From positions 36,106,867 through 36,170,866 of the forward strand of contig CAIIXF020000008.1 of NCBI GenBank assembly GCA_903813345.2: a DNA stretch of 64,000 nt. The letters run 5' to 3'. The first letter of the stretch is position 1; each line of letters begins with the position of its first letter. Both the position numbers and the translations under genes were made by a program. Origin of the DNA: Owenia fusiformis. Taxonomy: Eukaryota > Annelida > Polychaeta > Sabellida > Oweniidae. Below, one piece after another: positions 1-62,700 of this stretch. The notes under the pieces are model-generated. The model searched no databases. It saw only the letters and a program-made list of their open reading frames with translations, and was not told the DNA's origin.

Positions 1-120
1 TAATTTTTATACGAAGCTTATTGTGACCGGGATTGTGACCCTTTAAAACCTGACTTATTTTTTATATTTTGGGTAACTTTTTTAAAATGTTTACTTTTAC
101 ATACATATTTGGTTTAAGGA

Positions 121-386
121 ATGTAGACCGAAGAGCAGGGGTAATATATTATTGAATACATCCCGCAGGGCTAGGCACAAACATCTTCAAACGGTTCGAA
201 AGCTTTTGTGCCTAGCCCTAAGGGGGTGTATTAGACGATATTACTCCTGCTCTTGGGTCTATATTACGATTCGAACATAAAAACCTGATAAAAACTCCCC
301 AAAATGTTTCGAATTAAGATATATAGACCAAAGAGCAGGGGCAATATCGTCGTCGAATACATTCCGCAGGGCTAGGGACAAACGTT
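121..386. repeat. Hairpin repeat plus a half copy
   Basis: The segment 123-186 is followed by its near reverse complement at 205-267 (AGAGCAGGGGTAATAT ... ATATTACTCCTGCTCT, and GGGCTAGGCACAAA ... TTTGTGCCTAGCCC). A single arm recurs in the first orientation at 321-386. This looks like a small foldback MITE and a truncated relative. Family not recognised. Confidence 0.7.
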
Positions 387-855
387 TTCTGAATCCCGAA
401 CGACCGTACTGGTCGTCTTTAAAGTATTCGGAACTCCGGCCCTCTGTAGCAGCCCTATGCAACTCAATATTTTTTTGTCCAAATGTTCGTGCGCTATGTA
501 GTGGGCAACATATCCTTCATATAGTCGTACAATGGACAAACACTCAAATAGGCTACTGCCCTGGTTTGGTCAGTTGATTTCTTAAATTTTAAATTGAATC
601 TACATGTACGTCATGTATCTTCTAAATTCCAAAGATCATTGCTCTCGGGCTAAAAAACAAATACAAAAATACCCCATTTGTATACTATGATACGTCATAT
701 AATGAGGTGCGGCCAACGGATGGTTATTCTGTTCGCGACAATATTACCCGGGCAAGTAATTGCAAATTAAAACGTCTACAGCGAATATAGAATCAACATG
801 TATGTATGCAATTGACTGTAGACGCATTTTTTATACTAAAGTCATGCCTAATTGG

Positions 856-1389
856 AGGGTTTGTAGAAAAAACCGGGTACCGGGTAGTAAATCCTCCATG
901 CTGGATTCAAACTTGGTACCCGGTACCCGATCGAAAAAACCGGGTACCCAAAAAACGAAAAATACGAATATTTAACATAATAAGATCATTAGAAAACGTG
1001 TAAAATTTGTTTTGAATTTACAGAAATGTATGTTACTTCCTTCAAAATTGAGCTAGAAGCTTCAAATAAATTGCATTTTAAGGCTCTTTTCTTCCTCTAT
1101 CATCATGGTCATATTTTCATTGGTTATGGGGGGGGGGGTGCGATCGCACCATCGCACACCCTCCTGGCTACGCCTATGACATTGTAAGACGATTTGAAAA
1201 ACATGACAAGTTACATACATTTTTGTAAATTCAAAACAAATTTTACACGTTTTCTAATGATCTTATTATGTTAGATATTCGTATTTTTCGTTTTTTGGGT
1301 ACCCGGTTTTTTCGATCGGGTACCGGGTACCAAGTTTGAACCCAGCATGGAGGATTTACTACCCGGTACCCGGTTTTTTCTACAAACCC
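856..1389. mobile_element. hAT-like non-autonomous element with 180-bp TIRs
   Basis: A 534-bp element is flanked by the 8-bp direct repeat CTAATTGG (848-855 and 1390-1397), as expected for hAT target-site duplication. The arms, about 856-1037 and 1205-1389, are nearly perfect reverse complements ending in GGGTTTGTAG/CTACAAACCC. They are rich in GGGTACC/GGTACCC words. The core (1038-1204) has a G9 run and no coding frame. There is no transposase, so it would be mobilised in trans. The hAT assignment rests on the duplication length and is an inference. Confidence 0.75.
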
Positions 1390-2097
1390 CTAATTGGACT
1401 TAATTTCAGATACAGTCTTGGCTTGGACAATTGATTTCCCTAAATCTTAAATTGAAACTACATGTACATGTATCTTATACCATAGACCATTGTCAAAAAG
1501 AAAAATACCAACGGTATATGGATGGCCATATAGACTAATATATCGTCATACTTTTAACGCCGTAAAATCTACTTTAAACGTTGTTACGATTTTATGGCCA
1601 AAGAATTACTTTGAACGCCGCCAAAACTACTTTAAACAGTGTCAAAAACGATTTTGTAGGATTTCGAACGGCTTCAAGAATTATAAGTGACACGTAAATT
1701 ACGTCGAATCTGTGTTTGTCGCGCCATTTCGAATTGCCAGTAGTTCTGTAGTTTGAACCGATTGCTTTGATTGGTTGTGCAAAATCATTTTCCTTTCAAA
1801 AGAGTTTTAACGCCATAAAAATTAATTTTAATGAGGTACAAAAATCGTTTTTGACGCCGTCATAATCATTTTTAACGGCGCACTACGTTTTTTGACGTTA
1901 AAAGTATGACGATGCATTGGTTCAGATGGCAAGCCATAAATGTAAACCATGATACGTCATAATATGACATGAGGTGGGACCAACGGAGAGTAGTTTTTGT
2001 TCGCGTCATTGATATGCTATTACCCGAGCAGATGAGATCAAAATAAATAGTCATCTGGCACTGAATCATCTCGAGCAATTGACACCTTTATGCGAAT

Positions 2098-2135
2098 ACT
2101 ACTATAAAAGACCAAGTTATGATATTCTCGAACCA
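2098..2135 (+). promoter_or_regulatory. Possible TATA box of the Ras-like gene
   Basis: The sequence CTATAAAAG at 2102-2110 lies about 100 bp upstream of the ATG at 2211, at a sensible distance for a core promoter with a short 5' UTR starting near 2135. Seen only as a motif match in AT-rich DNA, so it could be chance. Confidence 0.35.
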
Positions 2136-2210
2136 CAATCAGCTGAAACCTGGACTGACAACCAAAAGAAGAAACATTAGAAACGATCAAAAGAGATCTC
2201 AGAAACGAAG

Positions 2211-3646
2211 ATGATGAGTCGCAAATATAACATCGTGATGCTTGGCGCTGGAGGTGTGGGCAAATCGGCACTAGTGCGCCAATTTCTCTACGGCAAATGG
2301 CATCAACAGTACAAACCTACCGTGGAACAATACTACAGGCACCTTATGCGCTTTACACGTAAGTAAAATAAATCATGACAAACTATGACATTGTGTAGTA
2401 TTTTTGAATTCAATAGAGAAAACATGATCTGAATACTTTGGCAAATGAGTACTCGTGGTCGTTTTTTGAAATTGATATTGCTTAATCTTAAAAATAAGAA
2501 CGCATCTGCATATCATGTACATGTATGATTTGATTTTATGTTGCAGCGAAAATTTGCCATCCCATCGAGATTTTGGACACAGCTGGCAACTACCAATTTC
2601 CAGCTATGCGAGAACTTGCTATTCGTTCAGGACTTGCATTTATGGTCGTATTTGCTGTCGACGATGAAGACTCCCTCAAAACAGCAATCAGACTTCGCAA
2701 TGAGATCGTCGATATAAAAGGTAAAGCAAGTTTAAATTTTGTAACAATTAGATGACCTCTTATTCTACATATTCTCAATTTCTCCATATCTCACATGCTG
2801 CAAGTTTTTTGTACTAATGCTTTGCATCAATTTATTTTAGGCGATCAAGAGGTTCCGGTTGTACTCGTTGGAAATAAAGCTGATGTTCCAGAGAGAAAGG
2901 TTAGCGCTGTATCTGCCAAGAGATGCGCTCGATTACATTTCAATCATAATTACATCGAGACGAGTGCCAAATACAATATCAATATAGAGGAGCTTTTCAC
3001 TGACATTTCTAAAGAACAATTGAACATTGAAATCCCTGCAAAGGCCATGAAGGGGGTTGGGAAGGAACGCAACGTCAAGACAATATTTCAAAGGATCTTA
3101 AAACGAAACGCTATCCACAAGAACAATGAAGATAAACAATTGAAGACTTTAAGTCGCCGTTGTAGCTCGGAATCTAGCAATACATTTCCCTCGCAGCCGA
3201 CAAAATCAGACGGGCTATTCATGAGACTCTCGAGAACAATGCTCTCGTCTTTCGGCATTCTAAAGCGGCGAAAACCACGTCAAATCGAACAGGAGACTGG
3301 CAACGATAGCTTAAGTGCCCATGGATCATCTGAAATGCACATGGGCAGAAGTGAAGATACATTAGCGAGTGTCGATGACACTCGAATAAAATACGAACTG
3401 GTCGTACCAAAAGCAAATGTTACAAGATCGCAGTCCATCCCTAAAAGCACAAGGTACTTCGAAGACTCTCCGTTTTTGGTCCAGCAATCATTCAATGACA
3501 TTAATCAGCCTTCCGTTCGGTCAATGCTCACTGACGCTGATCAAAAGCGAGTTAGATGTTACAACTTACCTAGGACGCAACCCACATTTAGTGAAATGTG
3601 GGAGTGTGCAGAAGTACAGTTTGCCGATACAGAAAGGAAATTGTGA
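2211..3646 (+). CDS. Ras-family small GTPase, RASD/Rhes-like, 375 aa, 3 exons
   Basis: Exons are 2211-2358, 2547-2720 and 2841-3646, joined at GTAAGT/GCAG, GTAAAG/TTAG sites with matching phase 1. The G domain shows the P-loop GAGGVGKS (residues 12-19), switch I threonine in YKPTVEQYY (T37), DTAGN (60-64), NKAD (119-122) and a SAK motif. Asparagine replaces the Ras Gln61 and is followed by FPAMR, as in RASD1/Rhes proteins. It should bind and hydrolyse GTP and act in signalling at membranes or in the cytosol. Residues ~170-375 form a basic, Ser-rich tail with no recognisable domain. The C-terminus (DTERKL) has no CAAX box, so normal prenylation is not expected. The upstream ATG of the MM pair was chosen; either may be used. 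The gene converges on the sulfotransferase. Subfamily (RASD or Ras-dva) is not settled. Confidence 0.9.
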
Positions 3647-17566: not shown

Positions 17567-18426
17567 TGCCTTTCAAAAAGCGCTGTGTGTATCCAGAACA
17601 GCCTATCAAAGAGCGCTGCGTGTACCAAGAACAGCCTTTCAAAGAGCGCTGCGTGTACCAAGAACAGCCTTTTAAAGAGCGTTGCGTGTACCCAGAACAG
17701 CCTTTCAAAGAGCGCTGCGTGTACCCAGAACAGCCTTTAAAAGAGCGCTGCGTGTACCCAGAACAGCCTTTCAAAGAGCGCTGCGTGTACCCCAGAACAG
17801 CCTTTCAAAGAACGCTGCGTGTACCCAGAAAAGCCTTTGAAAGAGCGCTGCATGTACCCAGAACAGCCTTTAAAAGAGCGCTGAGTGTACCCAGAACAGC
17901 CTTTCAAAGAACGCTGCGTGTACCCAGAACAGCCTTTCAAAGAGCGCTGCGTGTACCCAGAACAGCCTTTCAAAGAGCGCTGCGTGTACCCAGAACAGCC
18001 TTTCAAAGAGCGCTGCGTGTATCCAGAACAGCTTTTCAAAGAGCGCTGCGTGTACCCAGAACAGCCTTTCAAAGAGCGCTGCGTGTACCAAGAACAGCCT
18101 TTCAAACATCGCTGCGTGTACCCAGAACAGCCTTTCAAAGAGCGCTGCGTGTACCCAGAACAGCCTTTCAAAGAGCGCTGCGTGTACCCAGAACAGCCTT
18201 TCAAAGAGCGATGCGTGTACCCAGAACAGCCTTTAAAAGAGCGCTGCGTGTACCCGGAACAGCCTTTCAAAGAGCGCTGCGTGTACCCGGAACAGCCTTT
18301 CAAAGAGCGCTGTGTGTACCCAGAACAGCCTTTCAGAGAGCGCTGCGTGTACCCAGAACAGCCTTTCAAAGAGCGCTGCGTGTACCCAGAACAGCCTTTC
18401 AAAGAGCGCTGCGTGTACCCAGAACA
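17567..18426. repeat. 33-bp minisatellite, ~26 copies
   Basis: A unit reading CCTTTCAAAGAGCGCTGCGT followed by GTACCCAGAACAG is repeated head to tail with only scattered substitutions and one extra C near 17790. Because 33 is a multiple of three, the array is open in several frames on both strands (11-residue repeats such as PFKERCVYPEQ). There is no ATG start with a plausible leader and no splice context, so I read it as a minisatellite and not a protein gene. High copy identity suggests recent expansion. Confidence 0.95.
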
Positions 18427-27114: not shown

Positions 27115-28112
27115 TATGGCTAGATGTGTTGGGAGGTGTCTAGTTTGAGCTGGGGAAGTATTACATTGCTAAATGAGCTATATCTGGAAAGCAAATTTTT
27201 CCCAGAATCAATTTTTGTAATTTAGAAAAATAATCAATTAATATCTCTAATTTATGTGCATATTTAAATAACACGGGGTAGATTTTTGCGAAAAAATGCT
27301 TATTCGACATTTTTGGGAAATAGTACAGTCCATCGTGACATTAAACTTTGTCAAAGGATAGAACAATTCACGTGTTATCAATTACATGAACTAATTGTAA
27401 TCATTATTATTGCTTCTGAATGTTAACAGAGAAATATTTAGTATGGAGGATACAGAAAAATTTGTAATTTTCTCCAATTTTTGTTCTACCCTGGGGAATA
27501 TTCATCAAAGAAAACCAAAACAATACATATTTCCAATTATAGGTCTCCCAATTGATAAATGATCTCTCTGTACACTGCATTTGATTACTTAGGGTTAAGG
27601 CAAGGTTAGGGTTAGGGGTTAGGGTTAGGGTTAGGCTTGGGCTCAGGGTTAGGCTATATAGTTAGGGTTAGAGGTAGTGTTGGGGTTAAGGTTAGGCTCT
27701 GGCTTAGGGTTAGGCTATAGTTAGGGTTAGGGTAGTGTTGGGGTTAGGGTTAGGTCATAGCCAATGATTTAGCCTTCCAGAGCAAACTTTGTGAAAATTC
27801 CAATAAAAATCATGGAAACAGTGGAGAAATATGACCAAACTAACAAAAAGTTGACTCCTGGTTGGAGCCTATGACGGATGTGTTGGGAGATGTCTAGTTT
27901 GAGCTGGGGAGGTATTACAGAGCTGAATGATCTATATCTGGAAATCACATTTTGCCTAGAATCAATTTTTTGTGATTTAGAAAAATAATCAATAAATTTC
28001 TCTAATTTATGCACATATTTAATAATACGGGGGTAAATTTTGGCGAAAAATGCTTATTCGGCACTTTTTGGGAATAGCATGGACCATTGAGACATGAAAC
28101 TTTGTCAAACAC
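27115..28112. repeat. Direct duplication flanking telomere-like repeats
   Basis: The segment 27115-27352 (GATGTGTTGGGAGGTGTCTA ... AACTTTGTCAAA) is repeated in the same orientation at 27868-28112 at roughly 80-85% identity. Between them lies the degenerate GGGTTA array. Confidence 0.85.
27588..27758. repeat. Interstitial telomere-like (TTAGGG)n array
   Basis: About 170 bp of degenerate GGGTTAGGGTTAGGG units mixed with GGTAGTGTTGGGGTTA and GGCTATAGTTAG variants, with a roughly 80-bp higher-order repetition. TTAGGG is the usual metazoan telomere unit, so this is an internal telomeric remnant or a simple repeat expansion. Confidence 0.85.
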
Positions 28113-38959: not shown

Positions 38960-39481
38960 TTAAAAGTTATGACTATAAATCTGTTTTAAAAAATTCTTTG
39001 ACACTTTATCAAATTTACAATAAAAGTCATGTCCTCCAATCATTGCTCCATCTCCCAAAATCCAAACAATTTTCTGTTCAATTGGTAAGGCAAAAAACAG
39101 AGTACATATATTTGGATCGATATTAGTGATTGAGTTATAAAATAGTATACGGTAATCATTAAAATGGGGACATATTAAGAGTCTGTGTGTCATATCTTCT
39201 ACGCTATTCAAGTTACAATATGTGCATTTATCGCCCAGTGGCTCATTACTAAGATTTCTCCATTTACAGGTTTCAGATCTTAATTTGAATCTACCACTCC
39301 TTGCAAGGAATTTATATTTGCATCCTAGGAAGTCATTCGAGAATGTTCGAAGGTATTCCTCCTTGCCATATCTGTTCTTTAAATGTACATAGGTTTTAAG
39401 ACTAGTCATATTATTAACACTATCACTAAAATCGCTTTTCAGCTTATCAGACATATCACTCAAGCCACGTATTCCTTTCAT
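38960..39481 (-). pseudogene. LINE reverse transcriptase C-terminal fragment
   Basis: An open minus-strand frame of 173 codons contains GRFKLRSETCKWRN and a Cys/His knuckle CTYCNLNSVEDMTHRLLIC, the usual layout after the RT domain of non-LTR elements. It probably belongs to the same element as 42270-43055, from which it is separated by 2.8 kb of other sequence. No start of its own. Confidence 0.8.
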
Positions 39482-42269
39482 TATAACGAATTTTATGTTA
39501 CACGACTATATGTTTTTATTCCGCTATTTAATATACGCTCTACCATGAGTATTTGGTATCAAATTAAACGTCTCTTAATCCTGCAAAATATCATTTAGTT
39601 TTTATCTCAGGGTTATAAAAGCTGAATGCATTATCAATCGTCGAACATTCAAAACTATCATTTTTTGCCTTGTAACCGATCACACTTATGTTGATTGACA
39701 ATAAATTTTTTATATTCTGAAACGTATTTTGTTATGATAATTGACAACTTCATCATGAAGACTGCATCGTGTCGATTGTACGTTAGCTGGAATTAATTTA
39801 TTTGCCAATTTACTATTGGAAAATCGACATTAAGAATGTGTAGCCCTCGAAGGCACCATCATCGACACCATGCTTGAAATCAACGGTGTCGAGAAGCCTC
39901 TGCACTATTCATGATAATCCTCCATTCACTTCTTTGAAATATAAATTGCCATATTAACGGATGTAAAACATTTTCAAAATACATTTGAATATAACATATT
40001 TAGCTTGTTACGTATTTTTCGACGTAAAGTACTATTTTTCAAAATCATCATCGACTCCACAAGTACGTTGTCTTTGCACTCTGCTTTCAATCAAAATCAT
40101 GTTTCAATGTTAAGTAATGGTGTTGACGGTTTGTCTCAATATATATTGATGATATAAAAATACGCTTTATTGATGTTATTCTTTGACCACGTAAAGATTG
40201 AGATATTTACGACCATCAACGACTCCACAACATACGACTCCAAAATACTATCCACATATTAAGTAGGTCATATGTATAATCGAACGCTATATATTTGTTG
40301 AATGAACCAACATTCATTAAATGACTATTTTGTTGTATGTGTAGCATTTTACAGTGATACCGAGCTAAGGATTTAGAGCATATTGTTCATTGTGATTACA
40401 ACGTATGGTGATAAGTAAAATTGAATCTATTAAGCAGATCATGTTATTTACTTATGATGCATATTCTGTTTGTCTTGAAATGCTATGGTAATGTGACACA
40501 AGAATTGGGATGATTGAGCAGTTCATAGTTTTATAAAATCACTGACAAATATAGATGCACATTCCCCGATATTTCTTAATTTATAAACGTTTCGTTCAGT
40601 GTACTACTAGACGAAATGTATTTCTTGCCATTATTGTAAAACAATAAATATTTCATTGGGATAATCAGTTTTGTGACATTTTATTAATGTGCATAACTTC
40701 CCACACTCTTATTAATATATCTGTCTTACTTATCAGACCTTTCTGATGATATAAGAATATGGCACTCACCAACGCCGAGGAGTGTCGTCGTTCCCTACAG
40801 ACTACAGTACAGGGAGAGAAAGAAAAATAAAGATACCAAAGGCTACTTAGAGCAAGAACGATTGCGACAGCGAGCATCGTATACGCCGAGAAATAATCTG
40901 TCTGCTGAAGCTCTTCAACGGATCAGAAAAAAAGAACAACAAGGCATCCCGGGAATACAGGGCACGCATACGCCAAGTGTAGAGAGAAACAATCAAAACA
41001 CGCCAGACTGAAGGGAACCCTCAGAGTCTCAGGACACTGCCAGGACACAAATGAAAATCCAAGAAATCCCAGAACGCATTATTAAAACATTGAAGATAGG
41101 GCGACTGGACTTAAACCAGTACCAGGTACCTTTCGAATCAATGCTGTGAGAGGGGTTTCCGATAATATTGTTGAAACGCGAGAATTATCGTGCTATTGTG
41201 ACGCATGCAGAACAGATACGCCATCCTCACCCTGTGGTTGGCAAAGGAACAACCTTATAACCGTTAGGAAGACCCAGCAGGCTGCTAAGGTGGTCACCGA
41301 GCAACCATCTTTAAAACCAAAACGGACCACACGACGAACACACCCGACACCCAGTACGTCAAGTAAAGCATCGACGCCCTCCGACGTTTCCACTCTTTCA
41401 ACCACATTGAAGCGTCGGCCTTTAGTAACCCCATCTACAAGTTCAAACTCTTCAGACACAATTGTTTCCGCGAAGAAAAGGAAAGGCCCGATAAAAAGAA
41501 CAGACACTGTAAATATTTGCAAGGCATGCGGTGTCAACTATTATTCGTATTTACAATCACAGTTCGAATGGATCAAGTGCTCTAAATGCCCCGACTGGTT
41601 TCATGGTTCCGGGAAATGTTCTCGTGTAAATGGGATACTCATTGGAGAAATATTTACATGCTTTAATTGCAATAAAAGACGATCTTAAATGTGTAAATTA
41701 TGTAAACGTTATTGTTTAAAAACCTAAGCGACCATCAGCGACACTGTTAAATAACACTTAATATCACAAGGAGGAGTGATTGACCTATTCGTAACAATGT
41801 TGTATTTTGATGTAAGAAGACACGTGTGTCTAATTTGTACATTCATTTTGTCGATCGAGGAATTGACTTGGCATGTAATTTAGCTTAGAAAACAAAATCT
41901 TGAAATTAATTATCTTTAGGGAAACTCAAAACAATGTATTTCAATGATTATCTTAATAAAATTCTCTTGTTAAGATAAACAACAACTATTGCAATTTATC
42001 TTTGTTCATGTGATTTAATTATTCAAACTTAATACATTAGTTTATCTTTAAACTCAAAATTAATTTTAAAACATGAATCAATGTAAGCCTATGTATGCAC
42101 CATCATCGACACCAGCAATTTAAGAGTATATTTACGTTTTGATGCACAATCAAGTAATTGTTTAAAGGGTAATAAAAATATTTTGAGAAACGCTTCTTAA
42201 ACCCCATGGCTAATGGTATATGCATTTATATCTCAATCTAAAATTTCATTTTTTCAACTTTTACATTGA
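39482..42269. other. 2.8-kb segment separating two LINE pieces
   Basis: This stretch lies between the two minus-strand LINE fragments. It carries a plus-strand PHD-finger pseudogene and repeated CCATCATCGACACC / CCATCAACGACTCC words (39857, 40043, 40211, 41730, 42099). It may be a DNA element that inserted into the LINE, but I could not find clean terminal repeats. Confidence 0.4.
40759..41688 (+). pseudogene. PHD-finger protein, frameshifted
   Basis: The 3' part is an open frame ending at 41688 with a C4HC3 PHD-type pattern: CKAC, then CSKC..WFH, GKC and CFNC, preceded by a Ser/Thr-rich basic linker and an upstream CYCDACR cysteine cluster. The 5' part begins MALTNAEECRR at 40759 and continues in a shifted frame as a Lys/Arg/Glu-rich helix (KGYLEQERLRQRASYTPRNN). 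The frame breaks near 40825 and again near 41010, so the gene is probably dead. PHD fingers read histone H3 tails; such proteins are also found with transposons. Product family not recognised. Confidence 0.55.
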
Positions 42270-43070
42270 TCAAATGTGAAAGAGATTCGTGGCTTGACTG
42301 ATATTACATTCAAACATCTGTTTTAGATCACTAAAATCAGTATTAAAATCTAGATCATATTTGTTAAGGATTTTATAGACACTACCAATGAAATCCCAAC
42401 CCATTTGCTTACCCTTCTGGGCTCTTATTTCCATGTCGTTAAGTAACCTTGCATGTACGTTGTCTTTGTTAAGGGACTTCAGGTAAATATAGTAATTTAT
42501 CATGCTCTTTTCCAACAATGTTTCTATGGGCTTCCAGCCTAGGTCACCAAACAGGGCAACTTTGGCAGGTTTGCAATGGACATCCATTATGGCGCATCCC
42601 ACATTATATTGTATGGATGACATTTTATTAATGTGCGACTTTTTGTCTAGTAAAAGTATTCCAGACCCGTGTAAGAGTGATGGGACTACTACCGTTTTAT
42701 AAAGTCTATCACCGAAAGTGATTCTATTAACATTCAAGTGCTTATTCAGAATTGATGTCACATAGCCTTTTAACTTCTTTCCCTTAGGGACTATCAAATT
42801 CATAAGATGGATATGATCTTTTAATGATCTGTCAAATAGGACACCTAAGTATTTGTAAGTTTTTACCTCTGAAATTCTTAAGTCACCAAATGGCCACTTC
42901 TTCTCAAAATCAGTTTTTTGGCCTACAATGAGAATTTTAGACTTTTTCTCACTGAACCTGAATCCCCATTTGGTAGCAAAATCATTAGTTATTGTTAACA
43001 GACTTTTTAGTTGTTCTTCAGACTGAGCCATCAGGACTATGTCATCAGCAAACATGAGAAGTGGAATTAT
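42270..43070 (-). pseudogene. LINE reverse transcriptase fragment (FADD motif)
   Basis: A 261-codon open minus-strand frame begins within RT motif C, LLMFADDIVLMAQSEEQL, and continues through the thumb region (WGFRFSEKKSKILIVG, YKYLGVLFD) to a stop at 42270. The 5' part is missing beyond about 43075, as is common for 5'-truncated non-LTR copies. The open frame suggests a fairly young insertion. Clade not resolved. Confidence 0.88.
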
Positions 43071-43164
43071 ACGTTTTCATATATATATTTCATATACGTT
43101 TTCAATTTAAATCATTCTTATTCTTTTTTCAATCTGTTTTTTAAAAGTTGGATCATTGGTTTGG

Positions 43165-47738: not shown

Positions 47739-50700
47739 ATGGCGTCGTTAAATGATGGATTTTCGGAAGATGACTTTCGTAAGGCCGATACTGGGCGATG
47801 CGGTTGTGTAACGAAGGAAGACTTCAAGAAAACAGTTGGAAAACACATCACATTTAATAGAAAGTGTTTACAATTGTCAATTCTGAAGAGATTGCCCTTT
47901 CTAAGTATCATGCGAGACTACTCTTTGAAAAGAGACCTACTGAAAGACATATTGGCAGGGCTTACGAATGGAATAATGCATGTTCCCCAAGGTGAGTAAA
48001 TATTGCTTTATCATAAAGAGATTACTACACTATGCTCCGTAAAATTATGTGACGTGTAGCCAGGATCTAAAATGAGTTGAGGTAAAGTTGAATAGGTGAG
48101 GCAAAATTGAGTTGAGGCAATGTAAGACTATTAATTCACGGGTTCTATTGAAAAATGTCTGCATTTTTGGCTAGTCTATATCCAATAGACTGAATATCCT
48201 GAAAATTCAGTCTATTGATCATTATGTCCCTTCAGTGGAAAAAAACATGAGATTTTCAGCACAAAATTATCAATTTTAGGAAGCTTCACTTCCCAAGAAT
48301 AAACATAATTACAATTCTTGAGTAGTAAGGTTCAATTTAATGCTATAAAAAGTAACACAGCAAATTGTCAATTGCTTATCCTGCCTCACGTCTGGCTAAG
48401 CTAATGACATTTTCCAGTTTTTACCTCAGAACTAACAGTTGATCGAGACTGAAAAATACGTCACACTTGATTTTTTGTTTTATTCTTTCAAAATCTTCTT
48501 CTAAATTATGCTCTCAAATACAATGTTCATCGTTAGAAATTACCTCTTGAAATGAATGTGATACACCAATGGTCTTACCTTAGCTCCAATGCGGGTTTAC
48601 TGAATAAATAAACTGAAACAAGTGCTAACGTTTCCTCTGTGGTATTTTGTTTTTAAATATTGCCCAACCCATTAACATGCACTCCCCCCAGTTTTCTGCA
48701 AGTTAAAATGCTCAATTCTGCAAGTGAAATTAGTGAATTCTGCAAGAAGAAAGGGCTAATTCTGCAGAAATTCCGCGGATATTCACGGCATTTTTTTATA
48801 TAATATAAATAACTGTTATTAATTTATGTCTTTGTTTAACTTTCTGACGAGAACCGAAAGAAAAACTAATGGTTTTCGAACCAGTAAACGGGAAAATATC
48901 GTGATAGTCAGGTAGTCAGTCACTACATACATGCTGCCATCTAACGGCAGAAATCAAACGATGGCGTTTAGAATTTTCACTTCGCATAATTTGGGTTATT
49001 TCTGCAAGGGATTTGACTGAAAACGTGTCAAATTGTTACAGGTAAGACTGACTTTTTAAACTTTTGGAAAATATATGGATTCTGCGGAAAATTCCGCGGA
49101 AATTGACCAAAATAGTTGATTCTGCAATTCCGCGGGCAGAGGCAAATTCCGTCCGCGCTCTGCAAACACAGAATCCTGGGGGCAGTGAACATGTGTGATG
49201 TAAGGAGGAAAATAGTAAGTTCGATTTATATAGTCAATTTTAATAGGGTTGTGACGTCAATAAAACCTAACTAGATAACAGCAACGCCAAGGCGTCGCAA
49301 ATCCCATGGAACAGCCAAGACCACCATTTTTCAATATGGTCGCTTACTAGCCAAAGTGCCGCGCCAAAGTGTCATTGGAAAGTGTGAACATTCATGGTTG
49401 CGCGGTACTTGTGATACGGGTGAATATGCCATACTCACCTGCTGTATATGGCATATTCCGCAGGTGAGTATGCGATATTCCGCCGTGAATATGCGATACA
49501 TTGATTTCAGTGAATACCCGATACTCACCTGCTGAATATGTCATACTCACTTGCGGAATATGACATATACCGCAGGTGAATATGGCATATGCCGCACGTG
49601 AAAACGTGATACAGAATTCTTGATTTGATTGGTTGCGAGAATCGACTCTAAATGTAAAACTACGCTGGATTACCAGGATTACCAGGATTATATGAATCCT
49701 TGATTGATTGATAGGGTTTTACTTGTTCGTTCAATCGATGCAATTGACAATTGCGTACTTCCGTATCGCATTCTCTCATTGGTTAGTGTGTATGCCATAT
49801 ACCACAGGTGAATCTGTCATACACCGCAAGTGAATATGCCATATTCGTTGCGGAATATGACATATATCTGTATCGTGTTTACCGCGTAACACTAGCCATT
49901 TTGGTAATCCAGCGTAGTTTAACATTTAGAGTCGATTCTCGCAACCAATCAAATCAAGGCTTTCTGTATCACGTTTTCACCTGCGGTATATGTCATTTTC
50001 ACCTGCGGTATATGGCATATTCCGCAAGTGAGTATGACATATTCCGCAGGTGAGTATCGGGTATTCACTGAAACCAATGTATCGCATATTCACTGCGGAA
50101 TATCGCATTCTCACCTGCGGAATATGCCATATACCGCAGGTGAGTATGGCATATTCACCCGTATTACAAATACCGCGCAACCATGAATGTATGTCATATA
50201 CCGCGTAACAATCGGTTTCTATACATAACAGTTTAGTTAATAAGTGAGAAAAGAAACTATAAAGATCATACTGATGAAGGGATTTGGCTGATTCCACCCG
50301 GGAATCTAATTCAGCTGAATGCCGTCCATTGCCAGTGTGAAAGAAATGATGGTCCCCCAGGGATAATGGTCCCCTTTCTTAACGGCCCTTACTGGCCCTG
50401 ATTGCGTATAAGATAATGAGGGAAAGAGTTGTATTTAGGTCACCATATAAATCAATGGATAGTAGGACCATAATTTGATAGGACCTCCTACCCTTTTACA
50501 CCGGTAAGAAGATTTTGATGCCGACATTAGGTCAAATTAGTGCCGTTGTCGGTAATGCGGTATAACCTCCGACCAGAAGACCTCCGACCACTAGAAGTTA
50601 CGTGGATAAGACCCAGCAAACCACGCAATGCACGTGTCAAATCTCGAAGATTCTCGTATCATTGAAAAACATGTTTTGATTTTTTGCAGGAATGGCGTTT

Positions 50701-53700
50701 GCGACATTAGCTGCGCTGCCTCCTGTGACTGGCCTCTACGTGTCCTTCTTCGTTCCACTTGTTTATTTCTTTTTTGGAACGTCACGGCACATATCTATAG
50801 GTAAGTATTTATATTTAGTTCCGTTTTTTATATTCTAGACATGAATGAGAAACATGCGATAAAGCTGAGTTTTATAATAACTGCATTCTTGGCGGAATTC
50901 TTGGGTGGCAGATACAACATAATACAAATTGATACAATAAATTCAGTGCAATACAATACGCACAATGCGATAAAATATAGATTAATACAAGACTTTGCAA
51001 TACAATGCAAATTAATACAATTCTATGCAATACAATACAATACAAATTAATACAATACAATATAATGCAATACAATACAATTCAAATTAATACAACACAA
51101 TGCAATACAATACAATGCAATACAATACAATGCAATAATTATCATTCTCGCCAGGAACCTCGGCGGTTGTATCATTACTGGTCGGAAACGTTGTCAGCCG
51201 ATATGGGTCCCCTGTGCCTCCAGCCAACCAAACTGTTGTTAACATTACAACCCCTCCCACGGGGGGATTTACTGATGTGGAAACATTTCAAATCTCAGTA
51301 GCAGTCGGATTAGCCCTCCTAACGGGGTTAATTCAGGTATGTGTGTACGCTATAGTTGACGTTATTGCACTCCGATTGGTAACAGTAACCAAATAAAAAA
51401 ACGCAATATGATAGATCAGTTTCACATTTTTCAACTTCTTAAAAAGTAGGCCGAGATCACACCGGAATAGCCTGACTACGGTAAAGTCAGATACCGTTGT
51501 CACAAATGGCGGACATAACCGTCGCTTCAACTGTTTAATTACTTGGTCCTCATGTCATGGGATTTTATCGTCGTTAATGCTCTTGTGATAATGTATCATA
51601 TGAAATCCCATTTTCGATCAAATTGGGTCGTGAATCGCTACAATATAGCCTCTTCGATATCGTCAATGACAACGGAATCTGAATTTGAGTAATTTAGAAA
51701 GACAACGTCATAAGGTAATTACAGTGTCCGTTGTCCCGTATATCATTTTGATCTGTTAAATTAAAGACTTTATTTCGATGGTAGAACATTATCAACTGTA
51801 CAATGAGTATTAAGACACTTTGATTGATTGTTGTTCCAAAGGAATTTAGTCTAGGTGCTCTATTAAACATACAGTTCATGAAAATCTAATTGAAGCGACG
51901 GTTATGTCTGCCATTTGTGACAACGGTATCTGACTTTACCGTAGTCAGGCTAATCCGGGGTGGAGATAAGGATTTCCGCCTCAGATTTAAAAAAGTCTAC
52001 TTTTTAGGCCACCTTACATTCTCTTTTTAGGTGGGCATGTGGTTATTTCACCTTGGCTTTATCACTGCGTACTTATCCGACGCCGTTCTCAGTGGATTCA
52101 CCACCGCTGCGGGGTTCCATGTTCTAACGAGTCAAGTTAGTACTGTCTTCGGCCTAACTATTGGGAGATACTCAGGCGCATGGAAACTCATCTATGTAAG
52201 CTCACGAACCATATTTTGTGCACTAAAGAGCCACTGTTAATGATCCAAAATATTTTTAATTTATATTGTTTAATTTAAACATGGGCATCAAATATCTTCT
52301 ACTTCAGTATGATATACCCATACTTTTAGAAGAGAACTCCTATTACTGCAAATTCCAACGTGCGGTGGCCATTTTGGATTTTTAAATTGTATTGAACCTG
52401 CTGTTATATTGTAATGTTTGCAGACCTACAGAGACATTGTATTGAACATTGTCAAGACTAATGTTGCTACTCTCATCACTAGTATCATTTGCATCGTTGT
52501 ACTCCTCATCGTGAAAGACTTTATCAATGGCAATCCACGCATAAAGGCTAAGATGAAAATACCTATTCCTATAGAATTATTTGTAGTAAGTAAGATTTTA
52601 ATTTATCAAAATCTTCACTTTTTGAGGAATATTACACTTCTACATAAAAGTATTGCATTCATTTGGGTGTCATTTCTTTTTTGAGGATGTAACTTGCATA
52701 TCTGATTTTTTCATAAAATATCAAGATTATAATTTTAAATCCTTTCCAGATCACAATAAGATCACACGCTGATTATACTGTACCTGCTAGTAGAACTAGA
52801 TACATTTCTGTTTGGTTTTCTATTGCAGGTCATCATTGGTACCATCGTTTCCTTCTTTACCAAACTAAATTTTCACTATGGCGTGGCAATAGTCGGAGTC
52901 ATTCCTCAAGGGTATGATTCTCTTTAACTCATTCAATACTGGGGCAAAAAGCACTATAATACTGACGATATTTTGAAAATTGCCATATATGGTACCTCTG
53001 AAATAATATATATTGTATATACATGGGCATACATACATAGTGTTATATATCATTTTAAAGCATATGATATACTCTTTCAGAATGAATAGTTTTTTAAGTC
53101 CCATTTTATAAGAAGCTAGTTTAATGGTATATACTACCCTGCGCACAGAGTCTACTTATAAGACGAAGCTCGCTTTTTAAGAAGTCGAACGAATGCAAAG
53201 GGTAGGTACATGTAGGTACATACACGTATGTACTTTGTCGTAATATAATATTTACAATGGTACTTCACCAAACTATTTAAACTAAAACCAAGAGAAATTA
53301 AGAAATTACTGGAAAATAGATACATACAATTTTGGGAAACAAAAATAAAATAAAATAATGGTAAATTGAGGTTTTAGAAAATAATAAAAGCAAAATGGAA
53401 CAAGGAACCCTACTTGGATTTAATCAAAAATGAAATAGACAGAAATAACTTGACAAAGCTAAGAATTAGCGCACATAAATTAGAAATCGAAACAGTAGCC
53501 TTATTCATAAAGCCAACGTAGGACTTACGTCAACGTATCGTATTACGGAAACTTATTTTGGTATTCATAAAGCAAACGTAACTTTACGATGAACGTAAAG
53601 TCCTGCGGATCTTACAAAATATTTACGTCAAGTATCTTCACCGTGTAACTTTACGTCCAGCCTTAAAAACACTATTTATTCGTACGTTTAGTATTCAATT

Positions 53701-56700
53701 ACCATGAGATTTTGTGAAACACTTGTTTTAGATATAATACGTAATGTTAAAATGATTTGTCATTTGCTTGACATCTTCAAGTTTCTAGCTGGTTCCAAAG
53801 ACAGGTACGAAAATGTCATCAATTTCTAGGTGTCCAAGCGTTAACAGCACCGTATCTTTCATATACGTTCAACGTAAATTATTTTCAAATGCCAATGGTC
53901 ATCATTACGTAATAGAAAGAAAGAACAAACGCATGTAAGCAAAGATGGCTTTTGTGGTAGATGTGCGCATCTTTGCAGTAAGACGGTCTCTTAGACGAGA
54001 GCGATTGCTTAGGGATCGTAGCAATCCCCTCGAAATTTTTGATGATAGGGAGGTCCTTACGAGGTTTAGATTACCGAGGCATTTAATTTTGGAGTAGCCA
54101 GCAATTGGTGACCAGGGGTTCGATTTTTTATGTATCCACAAATCTCCCCCTTCATCGGTGTACCTCACATAAAAGCATTTTTTTGTATTTGTCATACATA
54201 CAATTTACACCCCTCCAAAAGTTTGGCAACAATTTGATTTTCTATACTGAAATAGTTTTTGGTGAATTTTTTACTGAAAGATATTGAAATCTGGTAGCAA
54301 AATCATACATTTTATATAACAATCGTTTAATTGTTCAATGAAATCCAAATCAAGGGTTAGCATACATTGAGACAATTTTGTTAAGGGCAAATTACAACAT
54401 ATCTCTAAGGAACATATTTTTAACGAGCTACCATTGAAAAAGTCGTCATTCCCAATTCATCATTCAAAGATATATTATGTCAAATTCTGGCATGCTATTC
54501 CCACACTTTTAGATGATTTTTGAGAAGAATCCAAATCAAAATAATTTTATCTGCCATTTCATTTTGTAATAGAGGAGTTCATAATGACCTCATGAACTTA
54601 CAGTTAGTTTCTGAATACTAGTATATTCAAAAGCAAATGTTTTTGAAGATATGATACTTATTTAATCATGGCGCACAATAAAAGTCGTAATGGCTGCACG
54701 AATACTCTCAATTGGTACTGACGATAGAAGTGACAGATGACAAATAGTATATCAGGAAGCAATGCATATTGGTACATTACGTGATTTTTCTAATATTTTT
54801 TATGATGAACTTTTCCCCTAAGTGACACATTTACGATTCTAGGCCGAATTTCGACAATTTAAGCGATATGAGTCAAGAAAATAGTGTTACCTTTCTATTA
54901 GGATGGGTCCAGGTGCCAAAAATAACTGATCCATGGATATCATTTTGAAATTTGGATGCAAGAAATATTTTTTCGGAGCCATGTTTTTTTACGACTCATA
55001 ACAGGAAATAGATTATCTAAATGAAAACTGAATTTACATCATCAATCCTGGTTTTGACTTTAAAATTTACCGAAATAGATATTTAAATATTATTAAAATG
55101 ATTATTGACTATTTTTTTATTAATCTTATGCAGTGATTCGACTGTCTTCTAAAATTTATAACATAGCTTTAGAATTACAGTGTTATTTCATTATGCCAGT
55201 GTGGCCTAATGGAGTATGGCGCTGGACTAAGGTTTTGATAGTTTGAATCCAGCTGTCTGTGGTTCGATTCCCGGTGTAAAAGGGCAGGAGGTCCTTTCAA
55301 ATTATGGTCCTACTCTCCATTGATTTATATGGTGACTTTTTTTTATTAATCTTATGCAGTATCAGTCGGTAGAGCATCAGTCTTTGGATCCAAGGGTCGT
55401 AGGTTCGATTCCCACACGGGGCATTGCACAATGCTCTTACACTATGCTCGTTAGTTAGTTATTCCCCTGCGGGCATTCGGGTCATTACAATTGCAATTGT
55501 GCACTATTAAGGAACGATGTGAATTCTTGGGTTATGAACCGTCGTTTATCTATCGAGAGATGGAGAAGTAGAGGCTTCTGTATGTGTCCTGAAACGTTTG
55601 AGTTCATCACCTCAACCCGTTTGCTTTTTCTTTTCATTTTTCAAGTCTACCGACCCCATCTGTGCCAAACTTGGGACAGGCTGGAGAGTATGTTCCTGAT
55701 GCACTCGTTATTGCCATAGTTGGGTATGCTGTGCACATTGCCATGGCAAAATTATTTGCAAAGAAACATGGCTATGAAGTAGATCCAAATCAGGTTAGTT
55801 TTATCTTTGAGAAGGCTCGAATTCTGCACTAATTTTGAAGAAGCGCAACGATGCGTGATGTTGTTACTTCTGATGGGGGGGGGGGGGGTCAATTAAGGGT
55901 CACATGTCTTAATCGCAAACCTATTTTTCATCGATGTCCTAGTCATGCGCCAACTTGTTTAATTTATTTGAGGATATTTCATGACTTTCAAGATTGTTTC
56001 ACATTTTAGGAGCTGCTAGCAAATGGATTGGCAAATACGTCATGTAGTTTCTTTCTTTGTTTTCCCTGCACAACTTCGATGTCCAGATCTATTGTTTTGG
56101 AGTCAGCCGGTGGAGCGACGCAGGTATCGTATACTTTCTTTGTTAAATAGTTTGGAGGAGCCATTCTACATTTAGCTTATGATGTCTTGAAACATGCTTT
56201 TAGATGTTGAGTCTATGATACATTGATATGGTAGTGTGATTATGCAATATATACAGAATATCACATCATTTTGAGTGATATCATTTTTATCGCCGAGTTG
56301 ATATCAAATATCAACACGAGTGAGCGAAGAAATTATGTGATATTGGGTTTATCCCATGATTACGATCACCTTGTGATATAGTTCGTCATAAATACAATTT
56401 TTTAATCGTTATTTAGCAGCTTTCTAATCAAATTATATACACAATCGTAATTTAATACACCAATGAAACTTAAAGAGAATAGATTAACGGACCTATTTTC
56501 TCAAAAGAGAATAAATTATCTGACCTAATTTCCAACAATATTGTGGCGCGAAATGCAAATGTGATATCATACGGATATGCGTGAGATAAACGATATCACA
56601 CGCATATGAGTTTGATAAACGATTTTCTGGAAAATATCACACGGATTTCAATGATATCAGAAATATCAATTGCTGTTATTGTACAGATAACACATTAATC

Positions 56701-59700
56701 GTGGGATAAATTAGAATACTTACATCCAAGGTGTAGTCTAGTGTGCCAAAACGTCCATATAATCTATTTGGTGATAATCTTTTTAATAATGCATTTATTT
56801 TGACATTTGTGTCAGTTGGGTAATCATATTATAATTGATATAAGAAGGTTGGTTCTGGTTGTGGATTTAATAATCACAGACACTCAATTTAAGTATTTTT
56901 TGAATATTCACAATACAGGGTGGGCCAAAAAACCACCCCCTAGCCAATATTCCTGATAAATATTTATTTTTTTACAAACACACCAACAATGATATATCAT
57001 TTTAAAGATAATTTAATTTGCAACAAAATGATATAAAGGAGAACAATTTTCAACAACCCTATCTAAAGATATAACCAACTATGTAGCATGGGGGTAAAAA
57101 ACACCAATTTTCATCGATTTTACGAACAATAGCATATTTCACCAAATTTTACTGTTCAGTTAGGAATTGCATCATTGTCATGAGACTTTCACAACTAGAT
57201 ATTATATTTACAATATATACAATTTATTTTCAATACATACAATTTATTTACAATATATACAATTTATTTCTCGTTCAAAAAATCTCGTTCAATTATTTAG
57301 TATTAATGATGTAGGGTGTATAAATATGACCATCTTTTGCTCCCTGGATATGTAATGTATGTTTACGAAATTGATTTTGTTGATTTCTAAATCTACTAGT
57401 CCCCGTGCTCTTCACTCTTGTCTGATATCAATTGTGTGTTTGTCACGGGCTGGGATGTCAGTTGCGCTATGTCAGACGGACACTAGTGACATAAATCGGG
57501 ACTGTGGGAACGTCATTGCTGTTTTTGCTATGTGGGACAGTTTATAAATAGTTGAAATATATGATCACGATGAAGGCACTTTAGCAATCATTTTAGCGTC
57601 AGTACTTTTATGATCCAGTTCACAATCATTATCGCCATCTGGGCCATCGTTGCACAGTGTGAGAAGATCAGCGGTATTTAAGGTACTTTCAACCATCTCT
57701 AGCAGCCTTGTAAGTTCTTTTCTCAGCTCACCTGAAATCAAACACATCGTCTTACCAGCGATGACTAATATCATTTTTATTTGACGTCATACCAATAAGA
57801 CTAAATACGTAGCAACAGTATCCATAAACAAAATACTTGAATTCTGATCTGCTTTCAGTTTAAGAATTATATTCATTGAAAAGTATTATTATATTATCTA
57901 TACAATTTTATAAATTTGATAAATCATGGGTAGTATAGTATACCATGTCCCAAAGTGCGCTTGTACATTGTAATATACAAAACAAACCGGTGTAAGGCCC
58001 CTCACTGCCCCATAATACTATGTGCTAGTCACGATATGACGTAGACATACATTTTGGAAATGATAGTGAAATGATTTACCTATTTCGTTTTGCGCTCGGT
58101 TCACTGCCTCTCGTTCCATCTCCAACTCCCTTTCCTTTTGATCTTTCTCTTTTCTCAGGGCATCTGGAAGCGTGAATTGTTTAATGCAATGGCTATTTAC
58201 TTGAATTATCTAATATGGGCCTACAGCTAGCCTAGTGCATATCGTTAACCGATACATGATTTAAATGGTTTAGGTATATTTTGTGTTATTTGTAAGACAA
58301 ATTATAATTTTGAATTCCGTAGAGATGACTCGTTGTATCTATTTGAATGGCCTACCTCTTTCAGCGACTGCCTCTGCTAACCTATTCGCCACTACGAAAG
58401 TGAATACATTCTCAGCTGAAAAATAAATAATCTCATTAATTTATTTTATCTTTATAAATTATCTGATGGAAACTGAACTGGCGAAGTTGGTGAATAAAAA
58501 AAAGTTCGAGAAGAGAACATCAGATCCATAAAAAGAGTATTGTAAATAGCTTACTTTGGCAATGCTCTGGAATTGACAAATTGGTTCCAACTCCCTTGCT
58601 ACTTGTCTGTTTCTTTGAGAATAACATTTTCAGTTGTCTCCATGCTTTCTGTACCCTCTTGATTGCCATTTTTATTTGATCTTGTTAAATCTTTGATAAG
58701 AATTAAAAATTGCTTTGGCCTCTTTGAATCCTAATTTTTCATCTTATATTTATGTTATTTTAATATCCTTGACGATATCATCGTCTCTGATTGGTAGAAA
58801 CTATAATGCATACTATGACGCTATTGATAAAACTCTAATTTCCTATGACGTCACATTATGTTTGAATTTTTGGAAAATGACGTCATACAAAATTCACTCT
58901 AGCAACCATTACAAGTTGTGTAAACACTACTTTGTATTCAACCACAGTCAAATCCAATGGATATGTTATCAGATACAGACGAGAGGCCCGAATTGTACGG
59001 TTCTAAAAATGTCATTGCGCCAAATTCCTGAAGTCCAGGCAATATCCAATTTACTGTTTATTACGTCATAGGCCTAGCCTGATGATCTTAACGGGGCTAA
59101 AATGTCTGAATATTAGTCAGTCATACGAGAAAATATAAGCTAATAGGGGACTGTCATATTTTGCTAGTCTTACTCAAAAATAGTAACATCAAATATCAAC
59201 TTGAAACCGAAGGTGCATTCAAACTCCGTTGAGTTTTCAAAAACCTCCCAAGAAATAATCGTGCCGATTTGGGATCGATTGCATATTTGATTGCTGCCTC
59301 CGCTGCAAAAAATAGCATTGAAATCCACGCATTATTCAAAATTGTTTACCAAAATATATCGACGTTTTGGCTCACCCTGTATGTCTTATCAGCCCCTTAT
59401 GAGGAAATTACCAATTTTGATTTCACCTTGCATGTTTTTTAATACAATGTATAATGAGTGAAGGTATGGTATGTAGATACAGGAAGGTATGTAGATATTT
59501 CTAGATGTATATGTATTGCAAAATTCTTAATCTCTTTCTCTAGTTTTGCTATTCCACATTCCTCTAAAATAACACTCAACGCTCTCAAATACGCTCTCTG
59601 ATATTGACTTATATGTATATCAGTGTAATATTGATAGTTTTAATTTGTTTTTTTAGTTGTGTGCTGTTGTGTCATCCGGATTGCTCCTGATTGTATTATA

Positions 59701-62700
59701 TGTTCTAGGGGAATACTTGTATCATCTACCAAAGGTATTTAATGAATTAGAACGGATATCTAAGCTTGTGTTCGCGAATGCAACTAACGCCTGTCGGCTA
59801 GCGGATTGACCTACTGTTTTATGGGTATCTCATTTAAATATGAATTGAATAGTGGCAGGTACTATTCATATGTAAATGAGTTACCAATAAAATAGTATGT
59901 TAATCCGGTAGCCGACGGGCGTTAGTTGCATCCGCGAATACAACCTTTGAGAATGAAATGTTAGAATTAACAATTTTCAAATATCGTACTATATATTGAC
60001 TTCCTTTAAATCATTATTTTTCAGTATGAAAGCATTATTAGTAACATATCTTATTACATAGGAATAATTAAAAATTTAAGATTCCGAAATTGAAAATGTA
60101 AGATTCCGAAATGTCCTTATTCAATAGGATTGAAGGTTGAATTGAATTGAAAAAGCATAAACAAACGTGAATACAACGAAGGAGAACTACGCAATCGCTT
60201 ATTCTACACGTAACGGTCACATTCAAACTTTCTAAATCAAGCAATTATTGCAAACGTATATGTCTATTGTAAGTAAATACGATGTAATAGAGGACATTGA
60301 CATCATGATATACCATGACATCTCATTTCTTCTCAGCCTTGAGTGAAACAGAAAGATGCTATGAGTATCAGAATGGGACATTGATATAATTTCTGATTTT
60401 GTTGTCATTGTTTGCAGTGCATTTTAGCTTCCATAGTGATCGTAGCGATCAAGAATATGTTCAAACAATTTACTGAGCTGAAACGACTGTGGTATTTCTC
60501 AAAAATTGACGCCGTAAGTGATTTTAATATAAAATACTGTAACAGACCCGTCTGTGACAAGCCCGTAGCTCTAGATTTTGCCCAGGGGGAGTCACTTTTC
60601 AAAAGTTTCCTATGACCTAGGAGCCCAAATCACTCAGAATGGTGAAAACTCCATGATTTTGAAAAAGGGTGATTTCCCTCGAACCTCTCGACCCCCCTCC
60701 CCCTTCTGGCTACGGGCCTGGATGATATTATAATTTATCAAGTAATTCGTATGTCAATATGATTAGACTTGATTAGATATGATTAGATTTTTGATTTGAT
60801 GTGACTCTAAAAACTATAAAAGATGTTCATAATGTCAGTTATTACTGCACCTGTTAAGAAAAGGCTGTCTAGCTATCTACTTTTTCATTTATTCTAATTT
60901 AGATGTTTTACTTAGTGATAAATAATGTTTTCTGTTACGTGTCATGACTCATCATAAAATGCTTATCATATGCTTCTCTCACGTTTAGGTTGTTTGGTTC
61001 GTGTCATGGCTAGCTACCATGCTACTTGATACAGATCTTGGACTTCTTGTGGGTGCAATTTTTTGCCTCGTCACGTTTTTGTTTAGAGTACAATGGTAAA
61101 TAGCAATTTTGGAGGCACTTTTCAGAAACCCCCTTAAATTTATCTGACCCCGTAACATTTAGCTAATCCGTGGTTGATTCACTGGTCTATAAATCATTCT
61201 TGAAAAGTATTTTTTCTTTTCATACTAGGCTACATGTCAAAATTCAGAAACAATTCGTTTTTATGAATATTAATGGATAATAATACATTTCAACAAATGT
61301 TCCCACGGTGCAGGGATTGGGTTTAATCGTCATATAAACAAAGGAAGCGTTGGCCAAATATTTTATAAAAAAATTATAAATACGAGAAAATATCTTCCTT
61401 TTGAAATCCTTGTAGTTTAATGTCATTGTATATTCGTTAGTTAATCATTCCATCATTTGTATAATCATGTTTTCATATCATGTGATTCAGGCCAAACACC
61501 TATTTGATGGGAAAAATAGATGGCACTAATATTTACAGAGATATAAAAGATTGTGAAAAGGTAAACATGGATTTTGTTTGTTGTTTTCAATCATGGAATA
61601 AATTTACCATTTTTCAAGACTGAAACAAATAATCCTTACGTATAATGCTTTGGATCGATTCATCTTTTGTAGGCATCTGGCAGAACCGACATACACATAT
61701 TTAGACTGAATGGATCGCTAAGTTTCATAAACCGAGAGCAATTCCAGCGACACCTATACTCTGACACAGGATTCAACCCTGCCCTGGTGAAAATACAACA
61801 GAAATTGAAAGCAAAAAACAAGGATTTACAATTAAAAAAGTATGGAACACCTGATGTTGTTGAAAATGGCCATGCAAATGAAGGCTTCCATGCAAATGAG
61901 ATCAATGCAGAAGAAACAAAAACTAATCCGATTGAAGTAATAAGGCATGAACAATACACAAGTCATGATGATGATTATAAGCATTCTTTGACCCACATTG
62001 TACTGGATTGTTCTACAATGGCGTTTATAGACTCCGCTGGTATCACTGTTCTTAATTTGGTAAATATCTTTTAGTTCCCTACAACTACGGAATATGTCAA
62101 AAATTCAGGGTTTTACAATAAAAGAATAGATGTATAATATATAAATTATATGTGCCAGGATAAGATTTAAAATAATCAGATCTGATAGTGCATATGTTGT
62201 ACCTTTTCCTATTCTCATATTAAATTTCGAAAGGATTGTCCCACAATTGTTATACTATGTATTGTAGGTAATAGAGGAGTACAAAGAAACGGGAGTAGGT
62301 GTTATATTGGCTGGATGTACAGGTAGGTTTGTCATCATATCTAGATATAGACAAGTCAAAACAATTCAAAAATATTCCATCTATTATAAATTAAGGAAGT
62401 TATTTAAACATTTACAGGGATGCATTTTTGGGTCATCCTGTGAGATGCTATTGGAATGGAAAGTAAATCCACCATCTCTCTGTTTACGAATCTAGACTAT
62501 TATTTTGATGTTTTGCAAGTTGACCCCATAATATTTCAGGCTCTGTAAGGAAAATGTTAGTCCAACAAGGATTCTTCGAGAAACACGGCACAACTATCCT
62601 GTATGCAACTGCTGAGCATGCCGTGAAAGACATTGTAGAATCACGAAATGACATTGGAATAATATCAGACATCTTAGAGACAAACAATACTCAGGTAACA

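Follow-up and report, generated by a model that had tools for sequence, protein, structure and literature searches.

Composite promoters that combine RFX, CREB and NF-Y sites are represented by the S-X-Y module of MHC class II genes. Heptad-rich helices, such as that predicted for residues about 45-107 of the protein described here, are likewise found in CALCOCO1, APG6_N, Seryl_tRNA_N, transducin gamma and the NavAb C-terminal bundle; these generic coiled-coil models differ from it in that their matches lie far below the family cut-offs and none spans exon 1. That one protein-coding gene may be nested within another is well established for animals (PMC8467205). The locus analysed here resembles known nested genes in being a complete spliced gene that lies within one intron of its host, on the opposite strand.

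The nested gene and its SLC26 host

The window (the whole 64,000-nucleotide stretch of Owenia fusiformis DNA that was analysed) contains an SLC26 gene recognised by plus-strand matches to PF00916 at 50686-50805, 52025-52201, 55644-55793 and 56010-56135. Two host exons bracket the nested gene:

56010..56123, plus strand: host SLC26 exon before the nested gene; PF00916 positions 279-320, the C-terminal part of Sulfate_transp; donor CAG/GTATCG
59657..59734, plus strand: host SLC26 exon after the nested gene; 78 nt, bounded by TTTTTAG/ and /GTATTT; assigned by eye

The latter exon gave no match of its own in the PF00916 search. Since the former ends at 56123 and the next begins at 59657, the host intron spans positions 56124-59656, and it contains the nested gene plus conserved parts upstream and downstream of it. 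The antisense nesting in an SLC26 intron that had been proposed was thus borne out by the flanking exons. Unlike the nested copy, its relatives (see below) lie outside SLC26 introns, as far as the PF00916 search shows; nesting is therefore a trait of the window copy and not of the family.

The nested gene was modelled on the minus strand as four exons of 115, 60, 84 and 167 nt (426 nt, 141 aa, no internal stops), separated by three GT..AG introns, of phase 1 after exons 1, 2 and 3. This reproduces exactly the four-exon, 141-aa model of the original prediction, in which every intron was of phase 1. The parts of the gene are:

58555..58669, minus strand: exon 1, 115 nt, phase 1 at its end; holds the start codon and encodes the basic amphipathic helix
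58356..58415, minus strand: exon 2, 60 nt, phase 1-1; the coiled coil begins
58080..58163, minus strand: exon 3, 84 nt, phase 1-1; coiled coil
57565..57731, minus strand: coding part of exon 4, 167 nt including the stop; the coiled coil ends and a variable acidic tail follows
57243..57268, minus strand: a pair of polyadenylation-like AATAAA hexamers, just past which the copies cease to be homologous

A chain finder seeking four exons, all of phase 1, returned a best chain of 426 nt in the real 1,250 nt. No comparable four-exon phase-1 chain was obtained in 60 dinucleotide shuffles or in 49 stretches of 1,250 nt taken elsewhere in the window, a result to be taken as supportive, the splice filters having been chosen post hoc, when the real sites were known. 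Independently of this assay, the chain is not a chance one because paralogues align with it exon for exon (at four further loci); the view that chance closure was unlikely has therefore held. That both the nested gene and a gene family are real is, in our judgement, virtually certain, and by all signs in the sequence the gene is a functional protein-coding member of an old family, nested antisense in the SLC26 intron.

Other features of the window and of SLC26 genes were recorded as well. Intron-rich SLC26 loci occur on C8, C9, C5 and C12 of the same genome, together with four SLC26-type single open frames of 751-770 aa (C5:15971005, C2:9593629, C5:10130397 and C5:10148692), which look like old retrocopies. 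In the window, minus-strand open frames at 42270-43076 and 38960-39505 resemble (by eye) pieces of non-LTR retrotransposons; a 33-nt unit is repeated 26 times in tandem at positions 17568-18426, where both strands have open frames of up to 355 aa, and positions 27589-27754 hold a degenerate internal TTAGGG array (the vertebrate-type telomere unit). A 1,025-codon open reverse-transcriptase-like frame occupies positions 1-3075 (gene orientation) of locus L009.

Close copies and distant relatives

When the window's own genome (498,259,871 bases, 525 contigs) was searched with the 141-aa protein, ordered exon matches were found at C3:6.67M, C8:32.63M, C12:26.55M and C11:15.99M. In all five aligned loci, exons 1-3 are of equal length and free of indels: exon 1 has the same length, start and donor in 5/5, exon 2 is 60 nt long in 5/5 and also in a divergent gene on C6, and exon 3 is 84 nt long in 5/5 and also in the C6 gene and a gene on C10. 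The full plan of 115/60/84/about 150-173 nt with phase-1 GT..AG introns is found in four of the five, the exception being the C11 copy, which is broken: its exon 1 contains a stop, and both exon 4 and the conserved upstream region are missing. The splice sites are kept in all four open copies (window, C3, C8 and C12), which encode proteins of 141, 140, 142 and 119 aa, respectively. In exon 4, the indels of the C3 and C8 copies come in multiples of three and leave the frame intact, and the C12 frame is shorter; the protein tail after residue 108 varies among the copies. The acidic C-terminus that had been described is present in the window copy, but it is the least conserved part of the protein.

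The dN/dS ratios of the six pairs of open copies ranged from 0.104 to 0.441 (NG86 and YN00; codons 1-108 and 1-86), and those of the broken C11 copy versus C12 were 0.315 and 0.660; judged by these ratios, the frame of the close copies is under purifying selection. Aligned-base identity among the window, C3 and C8 loci was 54-73% in introns, 73-93% in exons and 72-79% in the promoter, dropping to 42-48% beyond about 58955 and about 57205. Since identity fades at both ends, the copied unit has the promoter at one end and the poly(A) region at the other. DNA matches to the promoter plus exon 1 numbered only five in 498 Mb.

With the C12 protein as the query, weak exon-1 matches were found on C10, C6 and C2 (E 0.114, 1.23 and 1.46, respectively), which a profile built from the four close copies matched at 2.7e-6 to 3.3e-6 (24 translated frames). 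Such small-database E-values are no proof by themselves because an unrelated-looking coiled-coil frame on C4 also reached 1.1e-4. This frame (C4:17.327M, L013; same 24 frames) matched through its coiled coil alone, and was taken as a chance coiled-coil match.

The C6 gene, found via exon 1 alone, has exons of 118, 60, 84 and 230 nt, all of phase 1 and with good splice sites, and its exons 2 and 3 are in register with those of the close copies (shuffle p 5e-5 and 6e-4). In reverse searches, the C6 protein had five non-self matches at E<=10, one to exon 1 of each close locus, and both non-self matches of the C10 protein were first exons of close copies. The C10 gene has phase-1 exons of 115, 48 and 84 nt; its exon 3 shows no significant match to that of the close copies (p 0.17), and its last exon was not found. 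Five C2 loci share a phase-1 first exon of 130-136 nt followed by a phase-1 exon of 147 nt, past which a long serine-rich open stretch is seen in frame translations alone; the C2 genes are proposed as kin of the close copies on the basis of the first exon, the phase and the promoter. On the downstream side of the 147-nt exon, positions 5541-6503 of L017 (C2:6208000-6216000) hold ~46 copies of a 21-nt tandem repeat, and four copies of this repeat unit were found in L019.

There are 11 genes when a locus is counted only if its first exon is open and one or more other exons were modelled. Left out of this count were the broken C11 copy (no exact CRE, TGACGTCA) and three other loci: C2:15.3626M (L021), where the start of exon 1 is missing, C4:29.288M (L022), with a stop in exon 1, and C4:28.564M (L023), which has an open exon-1-like start and one exact CRE but no modelled second exon; in L021 and L022, no CRE was present in the 450 bp before the match. 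In 11/11 loci the first exon is open, 115-136 nt long and of phase 1, and it carries the family signature, a basic amphipathic helix with an invariant W followed by a T-D/N motif. M1, W10 (window numbering) and T29 are invariant in these 11 first exons, and F17, K19, K20 and D30 nearly so. On the strength of these sequence comparisons, the family is old, uncharacterised and real, and not a product of chance. The nested gene is a real spliced gene, as had been predicted, but a family of at least 11 loci, plus relics, in the same genome had not been anticipated.

Upstream region and candidate promoter sites

The region upstream of the nested gene is conserved: aligned bases at positions 58932-58670 are 72% identical to those of the C3 copy, 76% to C8 and 64% to C12, and identity is 35-42% farther upstream. 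The following elements were noted:

58670..58955, minus strand: conserved upstream region (putative promoter), from the alignment with the C3, C8 and C12 copies
58920..58926, minus strand: TGTTTAC, forkhead-like; motif match
58899..58906, minus strand: GTTGCTAG, RFX half-site-like; GTTGC[CT]A in 9/11 upstream regions
58878..58885, no strand assigned: CRE TGACGTCA; motif match
58846..58853, no strand assigned: CRE TGACGTCA; motif match
58816..58823, minus strand: TAGCGTCA, a degenerate CRE-like site, the third in the region; C3, C8 and C12 have a CRE or a site resembling one at the aligned position
58790..58794, minus strand: CCAAT box (CCAATCAG); motif match and alignment

The 28-bp block at 58926-58899 (TGTTTACACAACTT..GTTGCTAG) had four matches in the genome with <=3 mismatches, all of them at the four open close copies; the reversed control had none. 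Within 320 bp upstream of the start codons there are 20 copies of TGACGTCA, spread over 10/11 genes (C10 has a one-mismatch site alone), although the 11 upstream regions are not independent, since four of the genes form one clade and five another. As background, these loci and the window, without window positions 57501-59000 and the upstream regions, had nine occurrences in 122,829 bases. Among 24 palindromes of the same composition TGACGTCA ranked first in the upstream regions, the others listed giving no matches, and an unbiased count of 8-mers in these regions also placed CRE words on top. The sequence GTTGC[CT]A or its complement was present in 9/11 upstream regions, against a background of 0.06 per 320 bp and permuted controls found in 3, 0 and 1 of 11. 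The forkhead-like sequence (TGTTTAC/GTAAACA) is missing from 5/11. Paired CREs numbered 937 in the genome, and the reversed control gave 98; among the pairs listed, many repeat one sequence and lie in what look like repeat families. A reading of the CRE signal as specific was for this reason partly rejected. TGACGTCA is also over-represented in the window as a whole (7 versus 0.57 expected; sites include 7918, 22778, 26636 and 49252).

As in RFX/CREB/NF-Y composite promoters, an RFX half-site, a CRE and CCAAT lie within <=150 bp in the window, C3 and C12 copies, but the family promoters differ from the MHC class II S-X-Y module in order and orientation. CCAAT, in the forward sense, is missing from the upstream regions of all five C2 genes. 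The origin of the X-box is mentioned in PMC4498915.

Protein features, proposed function and alternatives

The N-terminal helix of the 11 copies has a hydrophobic moment of 0.52-0.64 (p 0.003-0.050 against shuffles) and a net charge of +6 to +8, in agreement with the basic N-terminus originally described. The coiled coil was likewise recovered, as a heptad pattern at residues about 47-103 (exons 2-4) in which enrichment at positions a/d gave p 0.011-0.063, above 0.05 in two of five sequences; this is suggestive of a coiled coil, partly driven by composition. As the original prediction had it, the protein could not be placed in any family. In Pfam-A, the window protein had no credible match (CALCOCO1, PF07888, 18.1 bits versus a cut-off of 36), and four other family proteins or parts gave coiled-coil or chance lines only (APG6_N, PF17675, 23.7 versus 45 bits). 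The same kind of lines, and no others, came from NCBIfam with the four close copies and from sequence searches of the PDB, for which one protein and two profiles served as queries (best E 0.027). In viral contigs, 77 stretches fitted a search pattern and none was confirmed, and Rfam gave no match on window positions 56100-60500. The family is thus without a model in the Pfam-A, NCBIfam, PDB and Rfam searches.

These features suggest a tentative mechanism in which exons 2-4 would form a parallel coiled-coil dimer, and the basic amphipathic helix of exon 1, with its invariant tryptophan, might bind an acidic membrane surface or calmodulin. The tethered dimer would act as a small adaptor, its fast-changing acidic tail perhaps providing each copy with a separate partner, and CREB/ATF- and RFX-type factors would drive transcription. 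A coiled-coil adaptor tethered to membrane or calmodulin is a possibility that we hold with some reserve; the statement as a whole, which joins a functional nested family gene, a tethered adaptor and CREB/ATF-RFX control, has in our view somewhat less than an even chance of being right.

A basic segment followed by a coiled coil could also denote a nuclear regulator, bZIP-like or a dominant-negative partner, whose N-terminus binds DNA or acts as a nuclear signal and whose coil pairs with other proteins. The C6 protein does show a weak bZIP_1 line (E 0.1) among many coiled-coil lines, but it reaches 13.2 bits against a cut-off of 27.6 (PF00170), and the window protein has no bZIP match at E<=10; moreover, about 20 residues separate the basic segment from the coil, and that segment is amphipathic with an invariant W. 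We consider such a regulator unlikely, and to a like degree an axonemal or flagellar coiled-coil protein of cilia or sperm under RFX/FOXJ1/CREM-type control. The latter would agree with upstream regions that bear an RFX half-site in 9/11 cases, a CRE in 10/11 and a forkhead-like site in some, and with the role of RFX factors in regulating ciliogenesis (PMC4745085). However, the dominant upstream signal is the CRE, which is no ciliary signature, and 5/11 upstream regions lack the forkhead-like site. In addition, since RFX2 and CREM control largely separate gene sets in mouse testis (PMC4498915), the combination of CRE and RFX sites is no simple pointer to spermatids.

The presence of copies on different chromosomes, and homology between window, C3 and C8 that reaches from the promoter as far as the poly(A) region and tails off on either side, might be expected of a low-copy, intron-bearing transposable element or a relic of one. 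The evidence speaks against a transposon, however, since promoter plus exon 1 has only five DNA matches in 498 Mb and no inverted repeats of >=14 nt flanked the shared block on both sides in any of the three loci examined; terminal inverted repeats and many copies, as in transposable elements, were thus not found. The introns are retained, the divergence is old and selection is purifying, all of which makes this origin very improbable. Least credible of all is a chance four-exon chain in the SLC26 intron, or a piece of antisense non-coding RNA: the nested position would allow it, but paralogues have the same exons and frame with dN/dS below 0.45, 0/60 shuffles gave a comparable chain, and positions 56100-60500 have no Rfam match.

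Returning to the adaptor interpretation, a more speculative extension is that an undescribed animal family is involved, defined by the exon-1 helix with its invariant W and TD(L)SIP-type motif, by coiled-coil exons of phase 1 that are open to exchange or lengthening (the 147-nt exon of the C2 clade), and by a CRE plus RFX promoter of ancient origin; its members might be cAMP-responsive small adaptors peculiar to an animal group. If the CRE/RFX promoter is real, expression would be predictable and directly testable; even if it is not, an orphan coiled-coil family is spread over at least six chromosomes. Small genes that are rich in introns and have no Pfam family, like the present one in its antisense position within a host, easily escape annotation. 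Here three lines of evidence, selection, exon plan and promoter, are in accord, and a lone gene call made by eye has become a testable gene family.
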